Below, one piece after another: positions 763 to 18,318 of a DNA stretch of 61,749 nucleotides. The DNA comes from Acidobacteriota bacterium (lineage in GTDB: Bacteria > Acidobacteriota > Vicinamibacteria > Vicinamibacterales > UBA8438). The notes under the pieces were generated by a model. It was not told the origin of the DNA and did not search any database. It saw only the letters and a list, made by a program, of their open reading frames with translations. Within the stretch, counting starts at the first letter, position 1. Each line of letters opens with the position of its first letter. Location: NCBI GenBank assembly GCA_009838525.1, contig VXRJ01000027.1:90979-152727 (forward strand), in the 5' to 3' direction. The position numbers and the translations under genes were made by a program.

Positions 763-1941
763 ATGAACGTCGGCATAGTCTGTTACGCGTCGGTCGGAGG
801 TAGCGGCATCGTCGCGACCGAGCTCGCCAAGGCGCTGGCGCGGCGCGGCCACGAGGTGCGCCTCATCAGCAGCGAGCCGCCGGTTCGGTTGAGCGACTTT
901 CAGGCGGGACTGGCGTTCCATGCGGTGCGCACGCCAGGCTATCCGCTGTTTCGCGAGCCGCAGTACCTGTTGTCCCTCGCCAGCCGCATTGTCGAGGTGA
1001 CGCGCGAACACCGCCTCGACATCATTCACGCCCATTACGCGATCCCGCACGCCACCGCGGCGTATCTCGCGCGGGAGATTCTTGCCGGCGGTGGGGAAGC
1101 GTCGCCGTCGCCCAGAATCATCACGACCCTGCACGGCACCGATGTCACGCTGACCGGCAGCGATCCCTCATACCTCGAGACCGCCGCGTTCTCCATCGAT
1201 CAGTCGGACGGCGTCACGTCGGTGTCGGAGAGCCTGCGCGACGACACGTACCGCCAGCTTCCGGTTCGGGCCGAGATCGAGGTGATTCCGAATTTCCTCG
1301 ACTGCGAGCGACACCAACGGGTCGTTGACGAACGGCTGCTCGAGCGCTACCGAGGCGCCGATCCGGCAACCCGACTGGTGATCCATGTCTCCAACTTCCG
1401 TCCCGTGAAGCGCGCCGACGTGGTCGTCGAGCTGTTCCGGCGGATCCGCGACCGAATGCCCGCAAAGCTGCTGCTCGTCGGTGACGGTCCCGACCTGCCG
1501 ACCGCGTGCCGCCGGGCTCGCGAACTTGGTCTCGCCGCCGACGTGGAGGCACTGGGGGAGCAGGAGCTGGTGGTGCCGCTGCTGTCGATAGCGGACCTCT
1601 TTCTGCTGCCATCGTCGGAGGAGAGCTTCGGCGTCGCCGCGCTCGAGTCGATGGCATGCGGCACGCCGGTTGTTGCGTCGTGCGTCGGCGGCCTGCCGGA
1701 GGTTATTGTCGATGGCGAGTCCGGCATGCTCTGCGAACCGGACGATTTCGCCGGCATGGCGGCGGCGGCCATCCGCCTGCTGACCGAGCCGGCTCTCCAC
1801 CGGCGGATCGCGCGTCTCGGCACCGAGCGCGTTCGGGAGCGCTTTTGCTCGGAGGCGGTCGTTCCCCGGTACGAGGCGTTCTACGAAGCGGTTTTGGCCC
1901 GGCCGAGTGGAGCGGCGGTTCATTTCGGGGTCGGCGGCTGA
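763..1941 (+). CDS. bshA: BshA-type glycosyltransferase (GlcNAc-malate synthase)
   Basis: A GT4-family glycosyltransferase of 392 residues. In the BshA family it transfers GlcNAc from UDP-GlcNAc to L-malate, the first step of bacillithiol synthesis in the cytoplasm. The N-terminus MNVGIVCYASVGGSGIVATE closely matches the BshA signature with its GGSG glycine loop. The C-terminal Rossmann domain carries EESFGVAALE followed by SMACGTPVVA (about residues 283-303), the nucleotide-sugar E-x7-E motif. Length is normal for the family. Only 21 bases separate it from a PIG-L deacetylase, the family that supplies BshB, which supports the assignment. BshC is not in the window. The paralogous alternative is another GT4 enzyme, but the N-terminal signature argues for BshA. 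Confidence 0.85.
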   Translation: MNVGIVCYASVGGSGIVATELAKALARRGHEVRLISSEPPVRLSDFQAGLAFHAVRTPGYPLFREPQYLLSLASRIVEVTREHRLDIIHAHYAIPHATAAYLAREILAGGGEASPSPRIITTLHGTDVTLTGSDPSYLETAAFSIDQSDGVTSVSESLRDDTYRQLPVRAEIEVIPNFLDCERHQRVVDERLLERYRGADPATRLVIHVSNFRPVKRADVVVELFRRIRDRMPAKLLLVGDGPDLPTACRRARELGLAADVEALGEQELVVPLLSIADLFLLPSSEESFGVAALESMACGTPVVASCVGGLPEVIVDGESGMLCEPDDFAGMAAAAIRLLTEPALHRRIARLGTERVRERFCSEAVVPRYEAFYEAVLARPSGAAVHFGVGG

Positions 1942-1950
1942 CCCCACTTG

Positions 1951-1956
1951 TATACT
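1951..1956 (+). promoter_or_regulatory. -10-like hexamer TATACT next to the PIG-L start
   Basis: TATACT lies 6 bases before the ATG at 1963, with no Shine-Dalgarno sequence between them. That spacing fits a leaderless transcript. No good -35 is visible. One of several such gene heads in the window. Confidence 0.4.
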
Positions 1957-1962
1957 CAGCAC

Positions 1963-4671
1963 ATGCCAGCAACCTACCGGATCGCGCTCTTCTTTGTGTC
2001 GCTCGGGCTCGCGCTGGGCTTGACGGCGGTATCGGCCGTCACGCAGCCGCTGAGTGATCCGGCGGGGCAGGCCGACCTCGCCGTGGCGCTCCGGCAGCTC
2101 AACAGCACGGGCACGTTCCTGTCGGTCGTAGCCCATCCGGACGACGAGAACAACGCGCTGCTGGCGCGCCTCGCGAGGGGGGATGGACACCGAACGGTGC
2201 TGTTCTCGTTGACGCGGGGGGACGGCGGCCAGAACGAGATCGGTCCGGAACTGTTCGACGCGCTCGCCGTGCTCCGGACGGAAGAGCTTGCCGCGGCGCA
2301 CCGTCTGGACGGGGCCGAACAGTATTTTTCGCGCGCCGTGGACTTCGGGTATTCGTTCAGTGTCGAGGAGACGTTCGAGCGCTGGGGCCGCGAGGAAGCC
2401 CTCTCGGACATCGTCAGGATGATCCGGACGATCCGCCCCGACGTCATCTCGGCGATGAGTCCCGAAGGCCGGGGCGGTGGCCAGCACCACCAAGCCTCTG
2501 CGATCCTCGCCCAAGAGGCCTACCACGCTGCCGCCGATCCGGCGCGGTTCCCGGAACAGATCGCGGACGGCCTGCGCCCGTGGCAGGCCCGGAAGTTCTA
2601 CTTTCGAACCGGTTTCCCGTTCGGGATGGGCATCGGGCCGCCTGGGTTCGCCAACCGGCGCGGCGACCCCGATCCGGCCCTGACGACGATCGACCTGGCT
2701 GGCTACGACCCGTTGCTGGGCGCCACCTGGACCGAATTGGGCAGCCGCGCCCGCAGCATGCACAAGTGCCAGGGCATGTCCCAGTTTGTCGCGCTGCCGG
2801 CGGGGGCGGCCGGCGGTCGCTACCGTCTGGCGGAGACGGCTATTGCCGGGTACACCGGCGGTTCCGGTGAGTCTTCACTCTTCGACGGTGTTGATACCTC
2901 GATCGGCTCGCTCGCGCGGTTCGCCGGAACGTCGCCGCCCAGCCGGCTCGTCGACGATCTTGCCGCGCTGGCCATGGATGCGCGTGATGCGCTTGAGGGT
3001 TTCGAATCCGATGGAATGGCGGGTGCGCGCGAGCCGGTCCTCAGCGGCCTGCTGCGGACCCGGCTGATGCGTACTGCGCTCGAGACGGGGGTGTATGGCC
3101 TGTCCGACGAGGCCCGGGCCGCGATCGACTTCAGCCTCACGAGTAAGGAGCGCCAGTTCGAGCGGGCCGCGGTGCTGGCGCACGCGGTCCGGCTCGAGGT
3201 GCTGGCCGACGACGGCATCGTGGCGCCCGGGCAGCCGATCCGCCTGCGGGCGCTGGTGGCCAACCTTGGCGATGACCCAGTGACGGTGCAGGGCCTGCGG
3301 CTTGACGGTCTCGATGGGGTCACGGGTGTGGATGCGTGCGCCGCCGCCCTGGCGGCGGGCAATGTCCAGGAGTGCAGTCTCGAAGCACGGATTCCCCCTG
3401 ACGCGCGGATGACCGACATCCACTGGACGCACGTCGCGGGGGCGGACCGCTACGAACTGGACCCGGACGTACCTTTCGGGCTGCCGTTCCGGCCGACGCC
3501 GTTCCGCGCGACCGTGGACCTGAGACTTGGGTCGGCCTCGATTTCTGTTGAGCGTCGCGTCGAGTACCGCTACTACGGCGACGACCTCTTCACCGGCGAG
3601 AAGCGGATGGCGCTTCAGGTCGTCCCGCGTGTCGCGGTGTCGATGACGCCGGCGATTACCGTCGTGCCGGTTGCCGCCACCGGAGACGCGGCGGCCCGCG
3701 AGGTGCGCGTCACGGCGACGCACACGGGTCCGATAGCGCCGGGCCGGCCGGTGACGGGCACCGTACGCCTCGATCTGCCGAGCGGTTGGGTCTCCGAGCC
3801 GGCATCGGCCGCGGTCACTTTCGGCCGCGAAGACGAATCGCGGACGGTTCGGTTCCGGGTGTCGACCGGCGGCGCGCCGACGGGCGAGTACACGATGGGG
3901 GCGGCGGTCGATGTGGCCGGCGAGGCCTACGACCGGGGCTACCAGGTGATCGAATACCCTCACACCTCTCGCCGGCACATCGGCCGGCCTGCTATGGCGA
4001 CGGTGCACGTGCTTGACGTGGCGGTAGCGCCGGATCTGCTGGTCGGCTACATCGAGGGCGTGGGCGACGCAGTGCCGCCGGCCATCGAGCAACTGGGTGC
4101 GCGCGTCGAGTTCATCGACGCCGACGGGTTGGCATGGGGCGACCTGGAGCGATTCGATGTGATTGTGACCGGTGTCCGCGCCTACGAGCGCCGCGACGAC
4201 CTGCGGGCGAACAACAATCGGCTGCTGGAGTACGTCGAGGCGGGCGGCGCCGTCATCGTGCAGTACAACAAGTTCGAGTTCAACGAGGCGCAGTACGGAC
4301 CCTGGCCGGCCCAGGTGGGACGCGGCCGTGTCACCGACGAACGGGCACCGATCCGCGTTCTGGCAAACGACCATCCGGTGTTCGCCTGGCCGAACCGCGT
4401 GGGCGCGGCGACGTGGGAGAACTGGGTGCAGGAACGCGGTCTGTATTTCCTGGCCGACCGGGATGAGCGTTACGCCGATCTGGTGGAACTGGAGGACACG
4501 TTCGAGTACAACGCTGGCGTCAAGCGGGGCGCGCTCGTTGAAGCCCGGCCAGGGCAGGGCCGGTGGGTCTATCTCGGCTTGGGCCTCTGGCGCCAGCTTC
4601 CCGCCGGCACTCCCGGCGCCTACACGCTGCTCGCCAATCTCCTCAGTCTTGGCGAGGGAGACGTTCGGTAA
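1963..4671 (+). CDS. Exported PIG-L (LmbE) family deacetylase with C-terminal GATase-like domain
   Basis: A 902-residue protein. Residues 1-25 form a signal peptide. The N-terminal PIG-L domain carries the zinc/catalytic motif AHPDDE at residues 57-62, and this family removes N-acetyl groups from GlcNAc-type substrates. The middle (about 400-660) looks like tandem beta-sandwich domains of the NEW3 type. The last 220 residues resemble a glutamine-amidotransferase-like flavodoxin fold (VIVTGVRAYERRDDLR, then VEAGGAVIVQYN). I chose ATG 1963 over the TTG at 1948, which lies in front of the -10-like TATACT and adds only five residues. It follows bshA closely, suggesting a BshB role, but the signal peptide argues for an extracytoplasmic substrate. 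Family confident, role open. Confidence 0.8.
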   Translation: MPATYRIALFFVSLGLALGLTAVSAVTQPLSDPAGQADLAVALRQLNSTGTFLSVVAHPDDENNALLARLARGDGHRTVLFSLTRGDGGQNEIGPELFDALAVLRTEELAAAHRLDGAEQYFSRAVDFGYSFSVEETFERWGREEALSDIVRMIRTIRPDVISAMSPEGRGGGQHHQASAILAQEAYHAAADPARFPEQIADGLRPWQARKFYFRTGFPFGMGIGPPGFANRRGDPDPALTTIDLAGYDPLLGATWTELGSRARSMHKCQGMSQFVALPAGAAGGRYRLAETAIAGYTGGSGESSLFDGVDTSIGSLARFAGTSPPSRLVDDLAALAMDARDALEGFESDGMAGAREPVLSGLLRTRLMRTALETGVYGLSDEARAAIDFSLTSKERQFERAAVLAHAVRLEVLADDGIVAPGQPIRLRALVANLGDDPVTVQGLRLDGLDGVTGVDACAAALAAGNVQECSLEARIPPDARMTDIHWTHVAGADRYELDPDVPFGLPFRPTPFRATVDLRLGSASISVERRVEYRYYGDDLFTGEKRMALQVVPRVAVSMTPAITVVPVAATGDAAAREVRVTATHTGPIAPGRPVTGTVRLDLPSGWVSEPASAAVTFGREDESRTVRFRVSTGGAPTGEYTMGAAVDVAGEAYDRGYQVIEYPHTSRRHIGRPAMATVHVLDVAVAPDLLVGYIEGVGDAVPPAIEQLGARVEFIDADGLAWGDLERFDVIVTGVRAYERRDDLRANNNRLLEYVEAGGAVIVQYNKFEFNEAQYGPWPAQVGRGRVTDERAPIRVLANDHPVFAWPNRVGAATWENWVQERGLYFLADRDERYADLVELEDTFEYNAGVKRGALVEARPGQGRWVYLGLGLWRQLPAGTPGAYTLLANLLSLGEGDVR

Positions 4672-7317: not shown

Positions 7318-8682
7318 CTAGCCGCCCATCCAGCGGTGGAGCTCATCGAGCAGTTCCGCCAGCGCCGCACGTTCGCGGCGGAGCCACGCCCGCGCCTCCC
7401 TCGGCGTCTGGCGAAGGGCGAAGAACGCCCGTACAGCCCGAATGACCTGCGTCTCCCGTTCGATGGCGCGCATACCGAACAGGGCGAGCGCGATCATGCC
7501 CAGTACGGTTAGAGAACCGGCGACGGGTCCCAGCGACACGCCCGCCGCCACCGCGGCCAGGCCGATCCAGGCGGCGTAGATTACGCCTCCGCCCAGGACC
7601 TTCCACGTTGGACGCAATTGCGGATCGGGCGCCTGCCGCGCCAGCCATCCGGTGACCCAGTACGGCGCGGCAAAGAGTGCGAGGGTGGCTATCGCCAGCG
7701 CTCCGAAAGGAAGCGCCAACAACCCCTCGCGGACCACGAACCGCGCGGCGACGCGGAACGGGACCTCCCGGTCGATGTCGCGGTCGTGCAGACCGAACCG
7801 GCGCAGGCTGGCGTCGTACTGATCCACGCGCCCGATGATGTCGGCGAGCTTCTCCGGATTTCGCTCCCGAAGCGTTGCCATCCCCGCCGCGATCAGGCGG
7901 CGGCGCTCCACGCGTTCGCGCGGATCGGAGGGCGCCCCGCGCGCCGCGGCGTACAGCCGGTCCGCCCGCTCGACCAGCCGCAGGTCATGGCGCGGCTCCG
8001 CCTCCACCATCAATCGCCGCAGCTTCGTTTCAATGCGCCCGGTCAGCTCGCGAACGGCAGCGGTCGGGTCCGTCTCGTGGAGGGCGCGCAGGTCCTCAGC
8101 GTCGAACGGCCGTCCGAAGACCGCCTGCACGCGTGACCGGAATCGCGTGAAGCGTTCGAAGTTCAGTCCGACCGGAATGATCGTGACCGAAGTGCCACGG
8201 CCTCCGCTCTCCAGCACCATTCGGGCGGCCCCGGTCCGGAGAGGTTCGAGGCGACCTCTTGCATGGCTGATTCCCTCCGGAAAAAGGCAGACCGCCTCGC
8301 CATGCGCGAGCGCCGTCAGGACTGCCGCGAACATCTCGACGTTGCGCGACGTGTCAACGCCGGAATCGATTCGGCGGTAGACGGGGATGGCGCCGGCGCG
8401 GCGGACCAGGGGGCTGAGGAGATGCCCGGCGCAGAGAGTCGACTTCGCAAGAAACCGTACCTGGCGTCCGGCGGTCGCCTGAATGAGCGCAGGGTCGAGA
8501 AGGGAGTTCGGGTGGTTGGCAACCAGCAACAGCGGTCCCGCGGGCAGGGCGTCGCCTGTCCGATCGACGCGGTAGAAGATGTGCACCCCGAGGGTGCCGA
8601 GGCTCCAGACCCAGCGGCTGGGAGGCGTGAGCGGGACGTTGGGGACAGGTTCGACAGCGGCCGCCGGCGCGCTCATTGTCAC
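7318..8682 (-). CDS. PlsC-type 1-acyl-glycerol-3-phosphate acyltransferase
   Basis: A 454-residue lysophospholipid acyltransferase-family protein. The acceptor motif appears as NHPNSLLDPA (H-x4-D, about residues 55-64) and the third block as LFPEGISH. The C-terminal third holds two or three membrane helices (around GLLALPFGALAIATLALFAA and VIYAAWIGLAAVAAGVSLG), so it is an integral or peripheral inner-membrane protein. The family acylates lysophosphatidate in phospholipid synthesis; longer forms like this are often annotated generally as glycerol acyltransferases. Its ATG overlaps the hisA stop codon (ATGA), making it the last gene of the histidine operon, with no obvious metabolic link to histidine. 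Confidence 0.85.
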   Translation of the reverse strand: MTMSAPAAAVEPVPNVPLTPPSRWVWSLGTLGVHIFYRVDRTGDALPAGPLLLVANHPNSLLDPALIQATAGRQVRFLAKSTLCAGHLLSPLVRRAGAIPVYRRIDSGVDTSRNVEMFAAVLTALAHGEAVCLFPEGISHARGRLEPLRTGAARMVLESGGRGTSVTIIPVGLNFERFTRFRSRVQAVFGRPFDAEDLRALHETDPTAAVRELTGRIETKLRRLMVEAEPRHDLRLVERADRLYAAARGAPSDPRERVERRRLIAAGMATLRERNPEKLADIIGRVDQYDASLRRFGLHDRDIDREVPFRVAARFVVREGLLALPFGALAIATLALFAAPYWVTGWLARQAPDPQLRPTWKVLGGGVIYAAWIGLAAVAAGVSLGPVAGSLTVLGMIALALFGMRAIERETQVIRAVRAFFALRQTPREARAWLRRERAALAELLDELHRWMGG

Positions 8683-9386
8683 GGCGGCGCGGCCTCGGCC
8701 GGCGTCGGAGGTGTGACGTCGATCCGGCCCGTGTAGATTGCCATCCCGACTACCGCGTCGATCCCCTCGGCATCGAGTTGATCGATCTCGGCCTGCGTGG
8801 TGATTCCACCTGCCGCGGTCAGCCGCCGCGCTGTGGCGCGTCGGACCGCCAGGATCGCCTCCATGTCGGTCCCCTGCATCAGCCCCTCGCGATCCACGTG
8901 CGTATAGAGGAATTCAGCGCAATACGGCTCGAGTGCGCGCGCCGCCTCCACCGCTGTGAGCGGGGTTGCCTCAGTCCATCCCTTGATCACGACGCGGCCG
9001 TGCTTGCTGTCGATGGCCGCGATCACCTGTTCCGGTCCGACTGCGGCGGCGAGTGACTCGGCGAAGGCGACGTCCACCTGACCGTTGTCGAAGAGGGACG
9101 AGCCGACGATCACCGCACTCGCCCCGGCGTCGAGCATGTCCCGCGCCCGGTTGATCGTGCGGACCCCTCCGCCGACGCGGCAGCGCAGGCGCGGCGCTAT
9201 CCGTCGGATTATTGCCGCGTTCGACCCCGATCCCATCGCCGCGTCGAGATCGATCACCTGCACGCGCGGGAAACCCCGGAACTTCTCCACCCACCCGTCG
9301 ATGTCGTCCGAGGCGAGCGCTGGCCGCTTCCCCTGCACGAGCTGCACGACCTGCCCGCCTCTCAGATCGATTGATGGAATCAGCAT
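8679..9386 (-). CDS. hisA: HisA, ProFAR isomerase
   Basis: A 235-residue TIM-barrel enzyme that isomerises ProFAR to PRFAR, the fourth histidine step. The N-terminus MLIPSIDLRGGQVVQLVQGK carries the catalytic Asp7, and the second acid lies in the half-barrel repeat VIAAIDSKHGRVVIKG. The phosphate-binding loop GGITTQAEID is present near residue 190. Length matches the family. It follows hisF by four bases and overlaps the acyltransferase start, so it sits inside the operon. The product is cytoplasmic. Nothing unusual is seen in its key residues. Confidence 0.93.
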   Translation of the reverse strand: MLIPSIDLRGGQVVQLVQGKRPALASDDIDGWVEKFRGFPRVQVIDLDAAMGSGSNAAIIRRIAPRLRCRVGGGVRTINRARDMLDAGASAVIVGSSLFDNGQVDVAFAESLAAAVGPEQVIAAIDSKHGRVVIKGWTEATPLTAVEAARALEPYCAEFLYTHVDREGLMQGTDMEAILAVRRATARRLTAAGGITTQAEIDQLDAEGIDAVVGMAIYTGRIDVTPPTPAEAAPP

Positions 9387-9390
9387 CTCG

Positions 9391-10146
9391 TCACAACCGG
9401 ACCGGAACGCCGGATGCCCGCAGATGGGTCTTCAGGTCGGCCACGGCATGCTCCGCGTAGTGGAAGATCGACGCTGCCAGCGCCGCGTCGGCCCGCCCGA
9501 CGGTGAAGACGTCTACGAAATGGTCGAAGGTCCCTGCCCCACCCGACGCGATTACCGGGATCGGCACGGCCTCCGACACCGCCGCGGTCAGTTCGCAATC
9601 GAACCCCGACTTGGTCCCGTCACGATCGATCGACGTCAGGAGGATCTCGCCCGCTCCCCGGCCGGCCGCTTCGCGAGCCCACTCCACCGCGTCGCGGTCG
9701 GTTGCCTGCCGGCCGCTCCGCACATATATCCGGAATCCGTCGCCTTCGCGTTTCGCGTCGATCGCGACGATTACCGCCTGGCTGCCGTACCGGCGAGCGA
9801 GCGTTGTGAGCAAGTCGGGTTTCTCGATGGCCGCGGTGTTCAGGCTCACCTTGTCGGCGCCCGCCTCGATGGCCGCCTCCGCGTGCGCCTCGTCACGGAT
9901 CCCTCCACCGACACAGAGGGGCAGGAAGATCTCCCGCGCCACTTCATCGATTGTCCGGGCGAGCGCTTTCCGCTTCTCGATCGTTGCGGTGACGTCGAGA
10001 ATCACCACCTCGTCGATCCCTTCTACGTTGTAGCGACGGGCCAGCTCGGCCGGCGCGCCCGCATTGCGCAGTCCCTCGAAGTTGATTCCCTTGACCACCT
10101 GACCGTCGCGGACGTCGAGGCAGGCGATGATCCGTTTTGACAGCAT
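9391..10146 (-). CDS. hisF: HisF, imidazole glycerol phosphate synthase cyclase subunit
   Basis: A 251-residue TIM barrel that uses PRFAR and the ammonia delivered by HisH to make imidazole glycerol phosphate and AICAR. The N-terminus MLSKRIIACLDVRDGQVVKG holds catalytic Asp11, and the second catalytic acid is in VIVAIDAKREG. The frame is open upstream to 10308, but the ATG at 10146 gives the canonical N-terminus and standard length. It begins 7 bases after hisH ends and stops 4 bases before hisA, so the three are clearly cotranscribed. HisF pairs with HisH in the cytosol. Confidence 0.94.
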   Translation of the reverse strand: MLSKRIIACLDVRDGQVVKGINFEGLRNAGAPAELARRYNVEGIDEVVILDVTATIEKRKALARTIDEVAREIFLPLCVGGGIRDEAHAEAAIEAGADKVSLNTAAIEKPDLLTTLARRYGSQAVIVAIDAKREGDGFRIYVRSGRQATDRDAVEWAREAAGRGAGEILLTSIDRDGTKSGFDCELTAAVSEAVPIPVIASGGAGTFDHFVDVFTVGRADAALAASIFHYAEHAVADLKTHLRASGVPVRL

Positions 10147-10153
10147 CTGCCGG

Positions 10154-10828
10154 CTATCCGTTTCCGGCTTCCGCCATCCGGCCGAGGACGTTTCGGAAGA
10201 GCCGCAATCCGACGTCTCCCGACTTTTCCGGATGGAACTGCATCCCGACCAGCCGGTCACGCTCGACGAGACTGGCGAATTCGATGCCGTAAGTGGTGGA
10301 AGCGACACAGTCGCCGGTCACCGGTGCGGCGTAGGAATGCGTGAAATAGACCTGATCTCCTTCGGCAATCCCGTCCAGTACCCAGGAGTCGCGCGTTTGG
10401 TGCAGGCTGTTCCAGCCGACGTGCGGCACCTTCAGCGTCTGGCCGGCCCCCTGTGCGCCGGGGCGGTCCACGTCGGCTGGGCCGTCCCCGGCGCCGGGCG
10501 GTTCGATCAGCCGGCAACGTCCGGCCATGGCTCCGAAGCCGGCCAGCCCCGACGCCTCCGCGCTCCCCTCGAAGAGCCACTGCAGGCCGAGGCAGATCCC
10601 GAGCAGCAAGCCCCCGCGATCGATCACGTCCGCGATTGCCCGCCGCCACGCGTCGTCGAGGGCGGAAGTGGCGTCGAAGTTGCCGACACCGGGAACGATG
10701 ACGCCCCGGACCCGATCCAGGGCCGCGGGCGACGCCGGCGTGTCGTAGCGCGCCCCCAGGTGCGTGAGCGCTTTCCTCACCGACGTCAGGTTGCCCGCCC
10801 CATAGTCGATTAACGCGATGCTGCTCAC
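10154..10828 (-). CDS. hisH: HisH, glutamine amidotransferase subunit of IGP synthase
   Basis: A 224-residue class I glutamine amidotransferase that releases ammonia for HisF. The nucleophile Cys79 is in [17 protein letters not shown], and the His/Glu pair of the triad is in [11 protein letters not shown] near the C-terminus. The N-terminus [16 protein letters not shown] is typical. The coding start overlaps the hisB stop by four bases, which suggests coupled translation. All triad residues are present, so the protein should be active. Confidence 0.94.
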
Positions 10829-11493
10829 AGCAGTTCCTTCGTACTGGGCAGCATCCGGCCCAACTGCCGGTCGCGCGAGCAGGCGACCCGCAGCGCGCGT
10901 GCGAACGCCTTGAACACGGCCTCGACACGGTGGTGGCTCGATCGTCCGTAGAGCACCTTGACGTGCACGTTGGCGCGCGCGCCCTGTGCAAAGCCGTCGA
11001 AGAAGTCGGCGATCAGCTCTGCTTGCAGATCGCCCACGAGCCGAGCCCGCAGCTTGAGATCGGTCACCGCATGCACCCGCCCGCTCAGGTCGACCGCCGC
11101 CACACCCAGCGTCTCGTCCATCGGCATGACGAAATAGCCCGCCCGGTTGATTCCCCGCTTCGAGCCGAGTGCCGCCGCCACCGCCTCGCCAAGCACGATG
11201 CCGATGTCCTCCACCGTGTGATGTTGATCGACGTCGAGGTCGCCGGTCGCCTCGACGGTCAGGTCGAACGCGCCATGCCGGGCGAACAGCTCGAGCATGT
11301 GATCGAGGAAGCGGATGCCGGTCCGGACACTGTAGCGTCCCCGCCCATCGAGCGTCAGGCAGAGGGCGACCCGCGTCTCGGTCGTTTCACGGTCGATCCG
11401 CGCCGTGCGGGCGCCGCGCGCGGCGCGCGGGGCGACCGTCCGTTCCTTCGCGGCCTGGTTCGCGGCGGTTCGAGCCGTTCGGTTTCCGCTCAT
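10825..11493 (-). CDS. hisB: HisB, imidazoleglycerol-phosphate dehydratase
   Basis: A 222-residue monofunctional IGP dehydratase, step six of the pathway. The manganese-binding histidine motifs are [24 protein letters not shown] and, in the C-terminal half, [14 protein letters not shown]. About 30 residues precede the conserved core ([17 protein letters not shown]), an Ala/Arg-rich extension not needed for the fold. A start inside it cannot be excluded, but the ATG at 11493 overlaps the hisD stop (ATGA), which supports it. There is no phosphatase domain, unlike the bifunctional enterobacterial HisB, so histidinol phosphatase must be encoded elsewhere. Confidence 0.92.
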
Positions 11494-12794
11494 CCTCTGT
11501 CTGTTGCCTTGCGCGTCGACTGCGCGCGGCGCGCCGCACGCGCTCCCGGATCCGGCAGCACACGACGAGCCACGGAGGCCGCGTGCGCCCGAAGTCCCTC
11601 GGCGTTGGCGAGCGAGATGACGGCGGGCGCAATACGGCGGAGACCAGTTCGCGTCAGCCGTTGCACGCTGTTGACGCGGACGAAGTCGGCGCCGCTCAGC
11701 CCGCCCCGTGCGCGTGCCGCGCCACCGGTCGGGAGGACGTGGTTGGATCCGGTCGCGTAGTCGCCGGCCGCCTGCGCCCCGAACGGTCCGGCGAAAACGG
11801 TTCCCGCCTGCGTGATCCGACGCGCGTCGGCCATCGTATCGGTCACCGCGTGCTCGGGCGCGATCCGGTTCGCGAGATCGATCGCGTCGTCCAGCGTGGG
11901 GGTCACGACCGCGACGCCATGGGCGGCGATGGACGGCTCGGCCGCCGGGTGTTCGCGCACCTGCAGCCGCACCGCGGCCGCGACGGCTCGTGCGAGGGTC
12001 CGGTTCGGCGTCAGCAGGATTGCGCGTGCGTCCGGATCGTGTTCCGCCTGCGCCACGAGGTCGGCGGCAATCCAGTCGGGGTTGCCGTCAGACGAGACGA
12101 CGACGATTTCCGTCGGGCCGGCGTAGAAGTCGATGGGGCAGTCGCGTGCGACGAGCGCCTTTGCCGTGGCGACGTAGGCATTGCCGGGGCCGACGATCTT
12201 GTCTACCCGCGGGACGCTCGCCGTCCCATAAGCCAGCGCGGCTATTGCCTGGGCGCCGCCGATCCGGAAGAGCCGATCCACTTTCGCTTCAACCGCCGCG
12301 GCCAGCACGGCGGGCGCCGGGTTTGGGCAGACCGCAAACACCTCGCCGACCCCTGCCGCGCGCGCCGGAATCGCCGTCATCAGCAGCGAGGACGGGAGTG
12401 GGTGCCGTCCTCCGGGAACATAGCAGCCAACCCGGTCGAGCGGCGTCACCCGCTGTTCGATGGCCACACCGGGCGTCGGCTCGACCCGCCAACCCTTCGG
12501 CACCTGTTTCACCGCCACGCGCCGGATCCGGCGCGCAGACTCGGCGATCGCCGCGCGCACAGCCGGTGGGGTTGCGTCAACGCCGGCGGTCAGTTCGTTC
12601 GCCGGGATCTCGATCGGTCCCCGCATTCGATCCAGCGTCTTCGCGTAGTGACGTAGTGCCCGGTCGCCCCGTGCCCGGACGTCACTGACGATCTCGGCGA
12701 CCCGCTGCGCGACCTGGCCGTCGATCCCTTCCGCCGCGCCTCGATCGACGATGGACTGGACGGCCCGCCGGTTTGACGAGGTGACGATCTTCAC
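11490..12794 (-). CDS. hisD: HisD, histidinol dehydrogenase
   Basis: A 434-residue zinc-dependent NAD enzyme that oxidises histidinol to histidine in two steps. Recognisable blocks are [53 protein letters not shown] and the catalytic Glu/His region [12 protein letters not shown]. The open frame extends to 12875, where it would overlap hisG, so I chose GTG 12794, which gives the family length and leaves 25 bases after hisG. The C-terminal tail is basic and Ala-rich. Gene order after hisG is classical. Confidence 0.93.
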
Positions 12795-12819
12795 GCCTCG
12801 AGCCTCATGACGGCGAACC

Positions 12820-13707
12820 TCACAGCACGATCTTGTTGAGTGGGTACTCGACGATGCCGCGCCCACCTGCCGCACTCAGTTGCGGGATGAGTTCCCGGAC
12901 CGTCCGCTCTTCCAGAATGGTCGAGACCGCCACCCAGTCGTTGTCGCTCAGGGGCGAGACGGTGGGGCGTTGCAGCGCCGGCAGCAGTGCGAGGATCGCG
13001 TCGAGGTTGGGACGCTCCACGTTCAGCATCAGTCCGACACGTCCCTGCGCTTCCATCGCCGCTCTCAGCAGCACGGCGATGTTCTCTATCTTCGTCCGCT
13101 TCGTTTCGTCCTCCATCGCGCGCCGGTTGGCGATCAGTTGCGGATTCGACTCGAGCACGGTGTCGATGATTCGGAGGTGGTTCGCGCGAAGCGTCGATCC
13201 GGTCTCGGTAGCTTCGACGATGGCGTCCGCGAGGTCAGGCGGCTTCACTTCGGTCGCGCCCCACGAGAATTCGACGCTGACGTTAACGCCGAGCCGTGCG
13301 AAGTACGATTCCGTGACCCGCACCAGTTCGGTCGAGATGTGCCTTCCCTCAAGATCGGCTGCCTTCTGAAACCGCGAGTCCTCCGGCACCGCGAGCACCC
13401 AGCGCACCTTGCGGAAGCTCTGCTTCGAATACACGAGGTCCGCTACGCGCACGATACGGTCGCCGTTGCCGGTGGCGGCTTCGTGCTCGGCAATCCAGTC
13501 GATACCGGTCAAACCCGCGTCAACCGCCTCGTCGGCGACATAGCGCGCCATCTCCTGAGCACGGATCAGCGTGCAGGAGATCTCGGGGTCGTCGATTGTC
13601 GGGAAATACGAGCGCTCGCTGACGTAGATGCTGAATCCGGCGCGGGCAAAGAGTTGCACCGTGGAATCCTGCAGCGATCCCTTCGGGATTCCGAGGCGCA
13701 GGCTCAT
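12820..13707 (-). CDS. hisG: HisG, ATP phosphoribosyltransferase, long form
   Basis: A 295-residue enzyme catalysing the first committed step, joining ATP and PRPP. Its length and the C-terminal segment after about residue 215 ([20 protein letters not shown], then a final ACT-like region) place it in the long HisG_L class, which is feedback-inhibited by histidine and needs no HisZ. The PRPP-site region is present as [19 protein letters not shown]. The start overlaps the hisI stop (ATGA). With the attenuator upstream, the pathway would be controlled both at transcription and at enzyme level. Confidence 0.93.
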
Positions 13708-14066
13708 GACGTGCCCCCCGCCACAGTGCCTTCCACGTCTTCGGTGCCACCCGGCAGTTGCTTGAAGAAGCAGGTTCGTTCTCCGGTATGGCAGACGTTG
13801 CCTTCCCCGAGCCGCTCCACCCGGACGAGCAGCGTATCGTCGTCGCAGTCGGTGAGAATCCGACGCACCCTGAGTAGATTGCCGGAGGTCTCACCTTTCA
13901 TCCAGAGGGTGTTGCGCGTCCGACTGAAGAACGTGGCGAACCCGGATGACTGCGTTTTCTCGAGCGCCGTGGCGTTCATGAAGCCAACCATCAGCACCTC
14001 GTTGCTGGTGTCGTCCTGAATGACAGCGGGCACCAGACCACCCATCTTGTCGAAGTCAATTTCCAT
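13704..14066 (-). CDS. hisI: HisI, phosphoribosyl-AMP cyclohydrolase
   Basis: A 120-residue monofunctional PRA-CH, the third histidine step, requiring zinc and magnesium. Key motifs are [20 protein letters not shown] with the Asp/Cys metal cluster (DCDDD), and [12 protein letters not shown] with two zinc-binding cysteines. It lacks the HisE pyrophosphohydrolase half. I chose ATG 14066 because a GGGGAG ribosome site lies about 9 bases upstream, and the product begins with the canonical MEIDFDK. The in-frame ATG at 14102 lies immediately after the attenuator's T-run and has no ribosome site. It is the first structural gene after the leader. Confidence 0.92.
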
Positions 14067-14100
14067 CGTCCCTGTTCTCCCCGGCTCGAATTTCATGCAC

Positions 14101-14133
14101 AAAAAAAGCCCCGCCGCATCTGTTCGGCGAGGC
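14101..14133 (-). terminator. Rho-independent terminator of the his attenuator
   Basis: On the minus strand a 9-bp stem (GCCTCGCCG with CGGCGGGGC, one G-T wobble) encloses an 8-base loop and is followed directly by seven T residues at 14107-14101. It lies between the leader peptide and hisI, where it would stop transcription before the structural genes. Its upstream arm (14126-14133) can instead pair with GGCGGGGC at 14189-14196 inside the leader reading frame, again with one wobble, giving a candidate antiterminator. Confidence 0.85.
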
Positions 14134-14165
14134 CATCGTGTCGCGTGCGAGCGTTTGGTTGCTGG

Positions 14166-14261
14166 TCAGCCTACACGCACCGCCACGAGCCCCGCCCCCG
14201 GATGGGCGTGGTGATGATGACCACCGTTGTGGCGTCGCGCGCGGCTGACGTTCGCTCTCAT
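14166..14261 (-). CDS. hisL: HisL, histidine operon leader peptide
   Basis: A 31-codon frame from ATG 14261 to TGA 14166-14168. It contains six histidines: His11, His15-His18 in a row, and His20 (core GGHHHHAHPGAG). It sits between a good promoter and a rho-independent terminator, immediately upstream of hisI. Ribosome stalling on the His codons when charged tRNA-His is scarce is the known mechanism for his operons with such leaders. The presumed transcription start lies within a few bases of the ATG, so the leader itself may be translated from a leaderless message. The opposite strand has no competing conserved gene here. Function is inferred from architecture; the sequence is unambiguous. 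Confidence 0.85.
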   Translation of the reverse strand: MRANVSRARRHNGGHHHHAHPGAGLVAVRVG

Positions 14262-14270
14262 CGCGCGCGT

Positions 14271-14299
14271 ACCATACCCCACCCCTGTTCGACCGTCAA
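14271..14299 (-). promoter_or_regulatory. his operon promoter
   Basis: On the minus strand TTGACG (14299-14294) and TATGGT (14276-14271) are separated by exactly 17 bases. The -10 hexamer ends 9 bases before the HisL start codon. This is the best sigma-70-like promoter I saw in the window. Confidence 0.75.
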
Positions 14300-14330
14300 T
14301 CCGATGCCCCGCGCATATATGATTTCGGGG

Positions 14331-14834
14331 ATGGGAAGGCTAGGAGCCAGCGCCGGACGCGCCCGCACGGGCGCGCTAGCGCTGGCGATCTGCTTCACGG
14401 CCTGCCTGTTGGGGTCGGCTGCGCCGATCCTTGCCCAGGGCGAAGACGCGGCGTCGGCCGCCCGTGGCGCGCTCGACGAGTACATCCGCGCCTGGAACGA
14501 CGAAGACAACGATGCCATTGCGGCAATTACCAACTTTCCGCGGATCAGTATCGGCCTCAACGGCCAGATCGTTGTCCGCGACAACCCCGAGGAAATCGTT
14601 GTCGACTTCGATCTGCTCCGGGCCGCCGAGGGCTGGGATCACACGACCCTCGATCTGGTCGATGCCACCCAGGTGTCACCTGACAAGGTCCATTTCCGCG
14701 TCGTTACCAGCCGCCGGCGGGCGGACGGATCCCCGTACCGCACCACCCCGGCCCTTTACGTCGTCACGAATCAGGACGGCCAATGGGGCCTCCAGGTCCA
14801 GTCCGTTCTGCCTCCGACTTTTTCCGCCCGCTAG
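14331..14834 (+). CDS. Small exported protein of probable NTF2/SnoaL-like fold
   Basis: A 167-residue protein with a signal peptide (about residues 1-38, [18 protein letters not shown], then ILAQGED). The mature part starts with [20 protein letters not shown], and the helix plus the later beta-strands ([32 protein letters not shown]) resemble a SnoaL/DUF4440-type cone fold that often binds a small ligand. No catalytic residues can be assigned. The start is uncertain: ATG 14331 gives the best signal peptide, while ATG 14304 is an upstream alternative. It diverges from the his leader. Confidence 0.6.
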
Positions 14835-14961: not shown

Positions 14962-15165
14962 ATGGCGCGCACCAATATTGACATTGACGAGGACGCCTGC
15001 GCCGCGGTGATGCGCCGGTTCGGGCTGGATACCAAACGGGAAGCGGTCAACTATGCGCTTCGAAGGCTTGCGGTTGAGCCCCTCAGCCTCGACGAGGCAC
15101 TGGGCATGCAGGGCTCCGGCTGGGACGGCGATCTCCGTGACCTGCGCCGCACCCGCGTACCGTGA
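14962..15165 (+). CDS. vapB: VapB-family antitoxin
   Basis: A 67-residue protein whose first half is a ribbon-helix-helix DNA-binding domain ([20 protein letters not shown], then [14 protein letters not shown]), the usual VapB arrangement. The C-terminal tail ([16 protein letters not shown]) is the type that neutralises VapC by filling its active site. The stop overlaps the toxin's GTG start by four bases. A TATGTT hexamer lies 6 bases before the ATG, suggesting a leaderless message. The system is chromosomal and intact; such pairs normally repress their own promoter. Confidence 0.88.
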
Positions 15166-15554
15166 TCCTCATCGACACCTCGGCGTGGATTGAGTTTCTG
15201 CGAGACACCGGCTCGACAACCGCCACCCGCGTAAGGGACTGCCTGATCAGAGAGGAAGTCGCCACCTGTGGAGCGGTGTACATGGAAGTGCTCGCGGGCG
15301 CGCGAAGCGAACGCCACCTGATGGAACTCCGGCGCCTGCTCGCTCGAGCCGCCATGATCGCGATCGAGGCCACTGACTACGATCAGGCGGCGTCACTTTA
15401 TCGACACTGCCGGCGGGGCGGGGAGACCATTCGCTCACTTGTCGACTGCCTGATCGCGGCGGCGGCGATTCGCGCCGGCGTGCCGGTCCTTCATCACGAT
15501 GCGGACTTCGACGCACTGGCGCGGCACTCGCCGCTCCTGATTGATCGGTCGTGA
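15162..15554 (+). CDS. vapC: VapC-family PIN-domain ribonuclease toxin
   Basis: A 130-residue PIN domain. The first acidic residue is in [14 protein letters not shown] (Asp5), the second in [11 protein letters not shown], and further acids in [15 protein letters not shown] and [11 protein letters not shown], so the four-acid metal site looks complete. VapC toxins cut tRNA or rRNA, but the target is unknown here. The start is GTG 15162 inside the vapB stop (GTGA), a coupled arrangement that keeps antitoxin in excess. Nothing looks damaged. Confidence 0.9.
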
Positions 15555-15588: not shown

Positions 15589-16023
15589 TCAACTGTCCGG
15601 CGGCACGTCTTCCCGGCCGATCATCACTTCCGTCGCCTTGACGATCGCGGTAGCGTCGTCGCCCCGCTTGAGACGAACTTCGTCGATGGCGTCCCGCGTA
15701 ATGACGGCAGTGAGGGACTGGTCGCCGATGCGGAGGCGCACTTGGGCCAGAAGGCCTTCGCGGCGGACTTCTTCGACGACACCGCGGAGACGGTTGCGGC
15801 CGCTGAGGGAAACGAGGACGCCGCTGCCGCGCGGAGAGCGACGCCGGCGGTCAGGAGGCGCGCCGCGGCGTGCCAGGAGGCGAGCCACTTCCTCCTCCGC
15901 GATGCGGTGATGACCGCCATCGGTTCGAACGGACCGGACGGCGCCCTTGTAGATCCAGCGCTTCAGCGTCGAGTAGCTGATACCAAGACGGTCGGCTGCT
16001 TCGCGGACGGTCAGGAGGGGCAT
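15589..16023 (-). CDS. MerR/excisionase-type HTH fused to a TOBE domain, probable molybdate regulator
   Basis: A 144-residue protein. Residues 1-52 are a helix-turn-helix of the excisionase/MerR type (VREAADRLGISYSTLKRW, then GAVRSVRTDGGHHRI). Residues 75-140 form a single TOBE/Mop domain (SGRNRLRGVVEEVRREGLLA, then QSLTAVITRDAIDEVRLKRG), the fold that binds molybdate or tungstate in ModE and ModC. It diverges from modABC across 74 bases, so it probably senses intracellular molybdate and represses the transporter. This is not classical ModE, whose HTH is a LysR-like winged helix. The function is inferred from domains and context. Confidence 0.82.
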   Translation of the reverse strand: MPLLTVREAADRLGISYSTLKRWIYKGAVRSVRTDGGHHRIAEEEVARLLARRGAPPDRRRRSPRGSGVLVSLSGRNRLRGVVEEVRREGLLAQVRLRIGDQSLTAVITRDAIDEVRLKRGDDATAIVKATEVMIGREDVPPDS

Positions 16024-16060
16024 GATTCCCAGGGTGACGAACTAAATCGTCTTAATCCGT

Positions 16061-16107
16061 TTGCCTGATATGACTGAAATCATACTATATTGTTCGAATG
16101 TTCGAAC
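16061..16107 (+). promoter_or_regulatory. modA promoter and palindromic operator over the start codon
   Basis: TTGCCT (16061-16066) and TACTAT (16083-16088) are 16 bases apart, and the -10 ends 9 bases before the modA ATG. A 7-2-7 perfect inverted repeat, GTTCGAA-TG-TTCGAAC, covers 16092-16107 and includes the ATG at 16098. The span is noticeably AT-rich for this genome. A bound repressor here would block transcription initiation and early elongation; the divergent HTH-TOBE protein is the likely ligand. Confidence 0.55.
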
Positions 16108-16889
16108 GGAGGGCCGTTCTGGCGGGCCTGCTGGGGCTGTTTGCGGCCTGTGCAGGCTCCGGCGGCGGGGACGGTGACACGTCCCGGGTCGGCGATGCGG
16201 CGCCGGTCCTGGTGTCGGCGGCGGCCAGTCTCTCCGAGGTGATGGCCGTGATTGCCGACCGATTCGAAGGGGCGACAGGCAGCGCGATCCGGTTGAACGT
16301 CGCCGGATCGCAGATGCTGGCGTCGCAGATTATCGAAGGCGCCCCGGTCGATCTCTTCGTCAGCGCCGATGAGTTGCAGATGGAGCGCGTGGCGGAGGCG
16401 GGGAGGATAGACGCCGGGAGTCGGATCGATCTGTTGACGAATCAGCTCGTCGTCGTCGTACCGTCGGACCGGCCGGGAACCGTTGCGGCACCCCGGGATC
16501 TGGCCCGCGCATCCATCGAACGCCTCGCCCTGGGCGACCCCGACGCGGTTCCGGCGGGCGTGTACGCGCGTGACTGGCTCCGCGCGGCCGGTCTATGGGG
16601 CGCTGTGGCGACGAAGGTCGTTCCGGCGAGCAACGTCCGTGCTGCACTTCGCGCCGTCGAATCGGGCGCGGCCGACGCAGGTATCGTCTACCGGACGGAC
16701 GTGCGGACGGCCACCGGCGCGATTGTTGCCTTCGAGGTGCCCATTGGGGATGGACCCGCCATCGTATATCCCGCGGCCGTTGCGACCGGCGCTCCGAATC
16801 GCTCCGGTGCCGTGCGCTTCCTCGACTATCTGCAGACATCCGCCGTCCGCCCGCTGTTCGAAGCGGCGGGCTTCGTCACGCTGCGATGA
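16098..16889 (+). CDS. modA: ModA, molybdate-binding lipoprotein
   Basis: A 263-residue periplasmic solute-binding lipoprotein of the molybdate ABC importer. The signal sequence ends in LFAAC with lipidation at Cys18. The mature protein starts with VSAAASLSEVMAVIADRFE and includes GSQMLASQIIEGAPVDLFVS, both standard ModA blocks, then PAGVYARDWLRAAGLW. The ATG at 16098 lies inside the palindrome and near the -10 hexamer, with no ribosome site, so the message may be leaderless. The stop overlaps the modB start (ATGA). Oxyanion-binding serines and backbone contacts match the family, but molybdate versus tungstate preference cannot be read. Confidence 0.92.
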   Translation: MFERRAVLAGLLGLFAACAGSGGGDGDTSRVGDAAPVLVSAAASLSEVMAVIADRFEGATGSAIRLNVAGSQMLASQIIEGAPVDLFVSADELQMERVAEAGRIDAGSRIDLLTNQLVVVVPSDRPGTVAAPRDLARASIERLALGDPDAVPAGVYARDWLRAAGLWGAVATKVVPASNVRAALRAVESGAADAGIVYRTDVRTATGAIVAFEVPIGDGPAIVYPAAVATGAPNRSGAVRFLDYLQTSAVRPLFEAAGFVTLR

Positions 16890-17542
16890 TTGCCGAGCTG
16901 ATCGAGGTGACGGGGTTCACGCTGCTGATGGCGGCGGTGGCGACGCTTCTGATGTTGCCGCCGGGCATTGCAATCGCATGGGTGCTTGCCCGGCGGCGGT
17001 TCTGGGGACGCTCGGTCCTCGAGACGCTCGTCTCGCTGCCCCTGGTCGTCCCGCCGGTCGCCACCGGCCTGCTCCTGCTGAAATTGTTCGGGCGACGGGG
17101 GCCGATCGGCGCGTTGCTCGAGCCGCTCGGTCTCGAGATCGTCTTCACATGGCGCGGAGTCGTCATCGCGATGGCGGTAATGGGGCTCCCCCTCCTGATC
17201 CGCGCGGCGCGCGCCGGATTCGAACAGGCGGACCGCCGGTACGAGGAAGTGGCGGCGACGCTGGGCGCGAAGCCCTGGCGCGTGTTCCGCACCATCAGCC
17301 TGCCGCTGGCTCGCCGCGCCCTGCTCGCCGGCACGGTACTCGGTTTCTCGCGCGCCATCGGCGAATTCGGCGCGACCATCATGCTGGCCGGCGCGCTGCC
17401 GGGCGCGCGCACGCTTTCGGTTGCGATCTACCGCAACGCGGAACTGGGCCGCGACACGGCCGCAATGGTGCTGATTGGCGCTGCCGTCGCGATTGGCTTC
17501 GCCGCGGTTCACCTGTCGAACCGCCTCGGGGCGGCATCGTGA
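16886..17542 (+). CDS. modB: ModB, molybdate ABC transporter permease
   Basis: A 218-residue inner-membrane permease with about five transmembrane helices (for example FTLLMAAVATLLMLPPGIAI and VVIAMAVMGLPLLIRAA). The EAA loop that contacts ModC is visible as YEEVAATLGAKPWRVFRTIS followed by LPLARRAL. The start ATG 16886 overlaps the modA stop, and its stop overlaps the modC GTG (GTGA), so all three are translationally coupled. The open frame upstream belongs to another reading frame of modA. Length is normal for ModB. Confidence 0.93.
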   Translation: MIAELIEVTGFTLLMAAVATLLMLPPGIAIAWVLARRRFWGRSVLETLVSLPLVVPPVATGLLLLKLFGRRGPIGALLEPLGLEIVFTWRGVVIAMAVMGLPLLIRAARAGFEQADRRYEEVAATLGAKPWRVFRTISLPLARRALLAGTVLGFSRAIGEFGATIMLAGALPGARTLSVAIYRNAELGRDTAAMVLIGAAVAIGFAAVHLSNRLGAAS

Positions 17543-18318
17543 CGGCGCCAGTGCCGAACCACGCGGACGCCGCCGCCACGCCGGTCGTGATTGACATACG
17601 ACTGCGCCAGGGATCGTTCTCGCTTGCGTTGCATGAAACGATCGAAGCCCGCACGGTGGCCCTGTTCGGCCCGTCCGGCTCCGGCAAGACTACGACCCTT
17701 GCGGCGGTCGCGGGTCTTCGCCGCCCGGACGATGGAGTCATCCGTATGGGCGACCGCGTCCTCTTCGACCACGCGCGACGGATCGACGTCCCGCCGCACG
17801 ACCGCCGCGTCGGCTACGTTCCCCAGGATCTCGCGCTCTTCCCGCACCTCGACGTTCGCGGCAACGTGATGTACGGCGCGCGCGAGGACCGCCGTCCCGA
17901 CGGAGACGACACTGGCTCCCTCGTGACCCACGCGTCAATCCTCGAGCTCCTCGAGATCGACATGCTCCTCGACCGCCCGGTCGACAGCCTCTCCGGTGGT
18001 GAGCGCCAGCGTGTCGCGTTGGCCCGCGCCCTGATGACGGCACCGGATCTGCTGCTGCTCGACGAGCCGCTCGCTGCACTCGACGCCAGCCTGCGCGGCC
18101 GCATCCTGCCGTATCTGGAGCGGGTGCGTGATGAACTTGGCACACCGATGCTCTACGTCTCGCACTCCGCAGAGGAAGTACGCCGCGTGGCCGAGCGGGT
18201 AATCGTGCTCGATCAGGGACGGACCCTCCGTGCCGGCGTACCGGCCGACGTCCTGCCCACGGTTCGCGCCGACGCAGCGCCGCTCGAATGTAGCGGGGGT
18301 TTCACCACGGGCTGCTAG
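17539..18318 (+). CDS. modC: ModC, molybdate importer ATPase lacking the TOBE domain
   Basis: A 259-residue ABC ATPase. Walker A is GPSGSGKTTT with Lys50, the signature is LSGGERQRVALARAL, Walker B is LLLLDEPLAALD, and the switch His is in YVSHSAEEV. Standard ModC is about 350 residues with a C-terminal TOBE domain. Here the ATPase core ends at about residue 245 and no TOBE follows. The last dozen codons, ECSGGFTTGC, and the stop codon come from the dispersed repeat at 18284-18319, so the native terminus has been replaced. The ATPase core is intact, so transport should still work, but molybdate sensing by ModC itself is lost. Confidence 0.9.
   Translation: MTAPVPNHADAAATPVVIDIRLRQGSFSLALHETIEARTVALFGPSGSGKTTTLAAVAGLRRPDDGVIRMGDRVLFDHARRIDVPPHDRRVGYVPQDLALFPHLDVRGNVMYGAREDRRPDGDDTGSLVTHASILELLEIDMLLDRPVDSLSGGERQRVALARALMTAPDLLLLDEPLAALDASLRGRILPYLERVRDELGTPMLYVSHSAEEVRRVAERVIVLDQGRTLRAGVPADVLPTVRADAAPLECSGGFTTGC

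Follow-up and report, generated by a model that had tools for sequence, protein, structure and literature searches.

A probable ribosome-mediated histidine attenuator, with a putatively leaderless leader peptide, before the hisIGDBHFA operon of an acidobacterium

What is a short, histidine-rich reading frame doing between the promoter and the first gene of a histidine operon in an Acidobacteriota bacterium? Histidine attenuators have been described in Proteobacteria, and a preliminary description of this locus, in the 61,749-nt stretch of DNA that we analysed (hereafter the window), had proposed one here. We conclude, with a probability of roughly 93%, that the element controls the hisIGDBHFA operon by ribosome-mediated transcription attenuation, its leader peptide probably being made from a leaderless mRNA. 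The mechanism is that of the classical leader-peptide attenuator and was already known; the novelty lies in the phylum, and in a conserved design with a probably leaderless start.

All parts lie on the minus strand. The -35 hexamer TTGACG (14294-14299; TTGACA or TTGACG is kept upstream of the leaders in relatives) is followed after 17 nt by the -10 hexamer TATGGT (14271-14276), which ends exactly 9 nt before the ATG at 14261. This is the only sigma-70-like site within 13600-14800, where 0.1 would be expected in shuffled sequence. The leader frame, MRANVSRARRHNGGHHHHAHPGAGLVAVRVG, occupies 14166-14261, with 31 codons and a TGA stop; it is predicted to be leaderless, its counterparts with His runs are kept in relatives, and no Pfam or NCBIfam model matches the peptide. 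Direct reading and the ribosome-position profile described below place the histidine sensor at 14202-14231, with six His codons: His11 (14231-14229), His15-18 (14219-14208) and His20 (14204-14202). Four short segments make up the pairing scheme: region 1 (CGCCC, 14204-14208), which in the minimum-energy fold with no ribosome stalled pairs with the 5' part of region 2; region 2 (GGGCGGGGC, 14189-14197), the antiterminator 5' arm within the leader frame; region 3 (GCCTCGCCG, 14125-14133), which is both the terminator 5' arm and the antiterminator 3' arm; and region 4 (CGGCGGGGC, 14108-14116), the terminator 3' arm. The intrinsic terminator, between the leader frame and hisI, has a stem of 10 pairs (14134-14107) and a run of 7 T (14101-14107), and its 5' arm (14133-14125) can also pair with GGCGGGGC (14196-14189) in the leader frame. 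The operon's first gene, hisI (phosphoribosyl-AMP cyclohydrolase, 13704-14066, ATG at 14066), comes next, and the remainder, hisG, hisD, hisB, hisH, hisF and hisA (8679-13707), was named from NCBIfam matches, hisA by a best match that scores below the curated cut-off. The promoter, the six-histidine frame, the seven-T terminator before hisI and the spacing of about 9 bases from the -10 to the start codon had all been read correctly in the preliminary description, down to the coordinates.

From these parts we infer how transcription start, ribosome stalling, termination and the response to histidine would fit together. From its sigma-70-type promoter, the message would begin with the leader ATG or only a few bases away from it. 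A shortage of charged tRNA-His would stall the ribosome at His15-17, where it would cover region 1; region 2 would then pair with region 3, the terminator (3:4) would be blocked and RNA polymerase would enter hisI. With ample histidine, translation would proceed beyond the His codons, leaving region 2 either covered or paired with region 1, so that region 3 would be free for region 4 and transcription would end before hisI.

Folding in silico makes the antiterminator and the terminator mutually exclusive, with the position of the ribosome decisive. For the window, antiterminator probability is 0.98 with a simulated ribosome at His11 and 0.95-1.00 at His15-17, and it is 0 at codon 19 and at every later position up to the stop, as it is with no ribosome at all; at codons 17-18 the outcome varies with the assumed ribosome footprint. 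Across 64 leaders the mean probability is 0.96 with the footprint at the first His codon and 0.31 with it at the stop codon. No leader reverses this trend (stop above His stall) by more than 0.2, and in a few the 2:3 pairing is still predicted with the ribosome at the stop. Shuffling the intervening sequence lowered the two values to 0.51 (His stall) and 0.19 (stop); GC-rich sequence retains good pairing after shuffling, and taken singly just 14 of the 64 leaders reach p ≤ 0.05. When leaders are considered together, the partners are specific to one another: among dereplicated leaders, duplexes of each region 2 with its own region 3 average -16.49 kcal/mol, versus -14.48 kcal/mol for swapped partners, a difference matched in 0 of 10,000 permutations, and the swap test also holds within the window's order alone (z of -3.2 to -5.0 at three similarity cut-offs). 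The mutually exclusive antiterminator that had been raised as a possibility is thus supported from two sides, by simulated-ribosome folding and by partner swapping.

One family from another class of the phylum (f23, 14 leaders) allowed the helices to be examined in alignment. In its antiterminator helix 95.5% of cells are paired, whereas no slid version of the helix exceeds 54.6%. The terminator covaries (10 double changes, reached in 0 of 500 shuffles); covariation in the antiterminator did not exceed that of column shuffles, perhaps owing to the additional coding constraint on region 2 and a tolerance of G-U pairs.

How widely the design is kept was judged from relatives found through HisI, which are Acidobacteriota, several of them named Vicinamibacteria. 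A leader frame with a His run is present at 52 of the 53 same-order his loci around hisI, nearly always followed by a terminator, and at 46 of the 53 a recognisable promoter precedes the start codon by 7-11 nt (mode 9). Outside the order, three families that belong to the phylum but not to the window's class carry His-run leaders as well: f23 at 14/14 loci, f37 at all five that reach the operon start, and f73 at one locus. This is the reverse of the picture that the preliminary description had set down as refuting, namely close relatives lacking His-codon runs and terminators. Among other families of the phylum, 15 further loci (most covering about 10 kb upstream of hisI) gave no convincing leader, and the sister family gave one at 0/2 loci; such absence weighs little, because the his genes may be scattered there.

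The gene that follows the leader varies. It is mostly hisI, but hisG in L016 and L271, and hisZ (identified from its protein sequence) in f37. In one genus (L016, L026, L030) the His leader lies between hisI and hisG and a separate promoter-like sequence is found at hisI, so that hisI there appears to have moved out of the attenuated operon. The f37 leaders (L146, L261-L264) are shorter, about 14-19 codons, with the His block close to the frame end; what is probably their region 2 (such as GGAAGGGGCGC) lies 3' of the stop codon, before hisZ. These are likely to be the same idea wired differently, in a form that the folding rule used here does not catch.

Could the frame simply encode a small stable protein, for instance a metal-binding His-rich peptide, that ends at its own terminator while hisI is expressed by leakage or from another promoter? 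Poly-His peptides do bind metals, and the frame has both a promoter and a terminator to itself. Outside the His block, however, the peptide is little conserved and leader length ranges from 15 to 35; such low conservation is what a sensor, as opposed to a working protein, would show. The frame also stays with the leading gene of the his operon whichever gene that is, each leader's region 2 is matched to its own region 3, and 13600-14800 offers no other promoter-like site. We regard a stable protein as very improbable.

The attenuator reading requires, further, that the His run be more than an accident of composition in front of a fixed, unregulated terminator. Codon choice bears on this directly: sensor blocks across the leaders contain CAT 190 times, CAC 188 times and CAG three times, and this equal use of the two His codons with almost no CAA or CAG argues for selection on the amino acid, that is, for constraint at the protein level. 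A fixed terminator would gain something from the ease with which hairpins form in GC-rich DNA, and from the one same-order exception, L019, which has a promoter and a terminator and no leader frame. It does not account for the codon usage or for in-frame His runs at dozens of loci in several families, nor for the lack of comparable leaders before other amino acid operons: the same scan of trpE, leuA and ilvB upstream regions in about 30 relatives found leaders in 0/75, with the proviso that it requires the promoter geometry of the his leader and that other designs could escape it. We give the accidental His run hardly any credence. In L019 itself (1880-2010, plus strand) the promoter nearly abuts the terminator before hisG, and the frame may have been lost naturally, or its absence may be an artefact of the assembly.

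Controls within the genome point the same way. A rule for a His-rich short frame followed by a terminator has a single match on both strands of the 61.7-kb window, which is the his leader. The pattern of promoter plus ATG occurs at 11 places in the organism's own genome versus 2 in a reversed control, and only at the his leader is it joined to a homocodon leader and a terminator. Together with the conservation in relatives, these results make the element more than a chance occurrence.

The start of the leader peptide deserves separate treatment. The gap from the -10 to the start codon is short throughout (7-11 nt, mode 9, and 9 nt in the window), and a 9-nt gap would place transcription initiation no more than about three bases from the ATG. 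Because so short a conserved gap gives no room for a Shine-Dalgarno site, the leader peptide is probably made from a leaderless mRNA, a reading based on promoter geometry that agrees with what had been suggested for this locus. Attenuation could also operate as proposed from a longer 5' end, with the peptide not made from a leaderless message; the start is deduced from that same geometry, and at some loci the frame can be extended upstream through GTG or TTG codons. We consider this unlikely, given a start codon 7-11 nt past a good -10 at 46 of 53 loci of the order, the same arrangement in other families, and the missing room for ribosome binding.

Leaderless leader peptides are not themselves novel. 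They are established for trpL in Sinorhizobium meliloti (PMC7298713) and for leuL, trpL and ilvL in Streptomyces lividans (PMC8079986), where, as predicted here, the start codon is at or near the transcription start, and several are followed by a terminator; those leaders respond to Trp, Leu or branched-chain amino acids, whereas the present one would sense His, and its start is placed from the promoter.

Among the closest known systems is hisL of E. coli and Salmonella (RF00514, His_leader), with which the element shares a short frame with a His run, alternative antiterminator and terminator hairpins, and a his operon downstream. It differs in its simpler layout of regions 1-4, in a message that apparently opens with the start codon, and in phylum. 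The RF00514 model matched neither the window nor 18 related loci, with nothing at E ≤ 10 in 13900-14500; the T-box covariance model found no match upstream of the operon (13900-14500), in the whole window or in the 18 loci; and no other Rfam family matched the element in the window or those loci. Weak Rfam matches such as sX13 (21.5 bits against a cut-off of 50) were set aside as chance.

The claim of novelty needs some refinement. We found no description of a His attenuator in Acidobacteria in the open-access literature, in line with the preliminary description; outside Proteobacteria, though, such elements have already been predicted in Firmicutes, in the Bacillus cereus group, Peptostreptococcaceae and Erysipelotrichales (PMC9413887), and before hisS and hisZ genes (PMC2965389). 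Those predictions likewise come from comparative genomics and join a His leader to a terminator and antiterminator. The present case differs in being from another phylum, in being carried by almost all members sampled from one order as well as by several further families, and in the conserved promoter-to-start spacing. A survey had predicted attenuators in phyla such as Acidobacteria, almost none with an assigned function (PMC2965389).

We lean, with some reserve, towards a broader proposal: that Acidobacteriota have a his attenuator family of their own, with a leaderless sensor peptide, in which initiation at the 5' end would set the coupling of ribosome and RNA polymerase; that in the window's order this family serves his and not trp, leu or ilv; and that it moves with whichever gene comes first (hisI, hisG or hisZ). 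Our main reading would assign a clear function to an Acidobacteria attenuator that is conserved across families. It also predicts a readable marker of histidine sufficiency in abundant, hard-to-grow bacteria, namely a transcript that ends after the His-rich leader, and the conserved leaderless start would provide a natural set of sequences for studying how leaderless initiation couples translation with transcription.

We finally note some features elsewhere in the genome and window. (i) The genomic places with the -35/-10/ATG pattern (L152-L162) have 8-10 nt from the -10 to the ATG; because they exceed the reversed control and often open long frames, they suggest leaderless genes elsewhere in the organism. 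(ii) At 14962-15554 on the plus strand, a VapB-like antitoxin gene is followed by one for a PIN-domain (VapC-like) protein. (iii) At 15589-18318, a gene for a helix-turn-helix/TOBE protein is divergent from one for a solute-binding protein, which is followed by permease-like and ABC ATPase-like frames, a set resembling a molybdate transporter (modABC).
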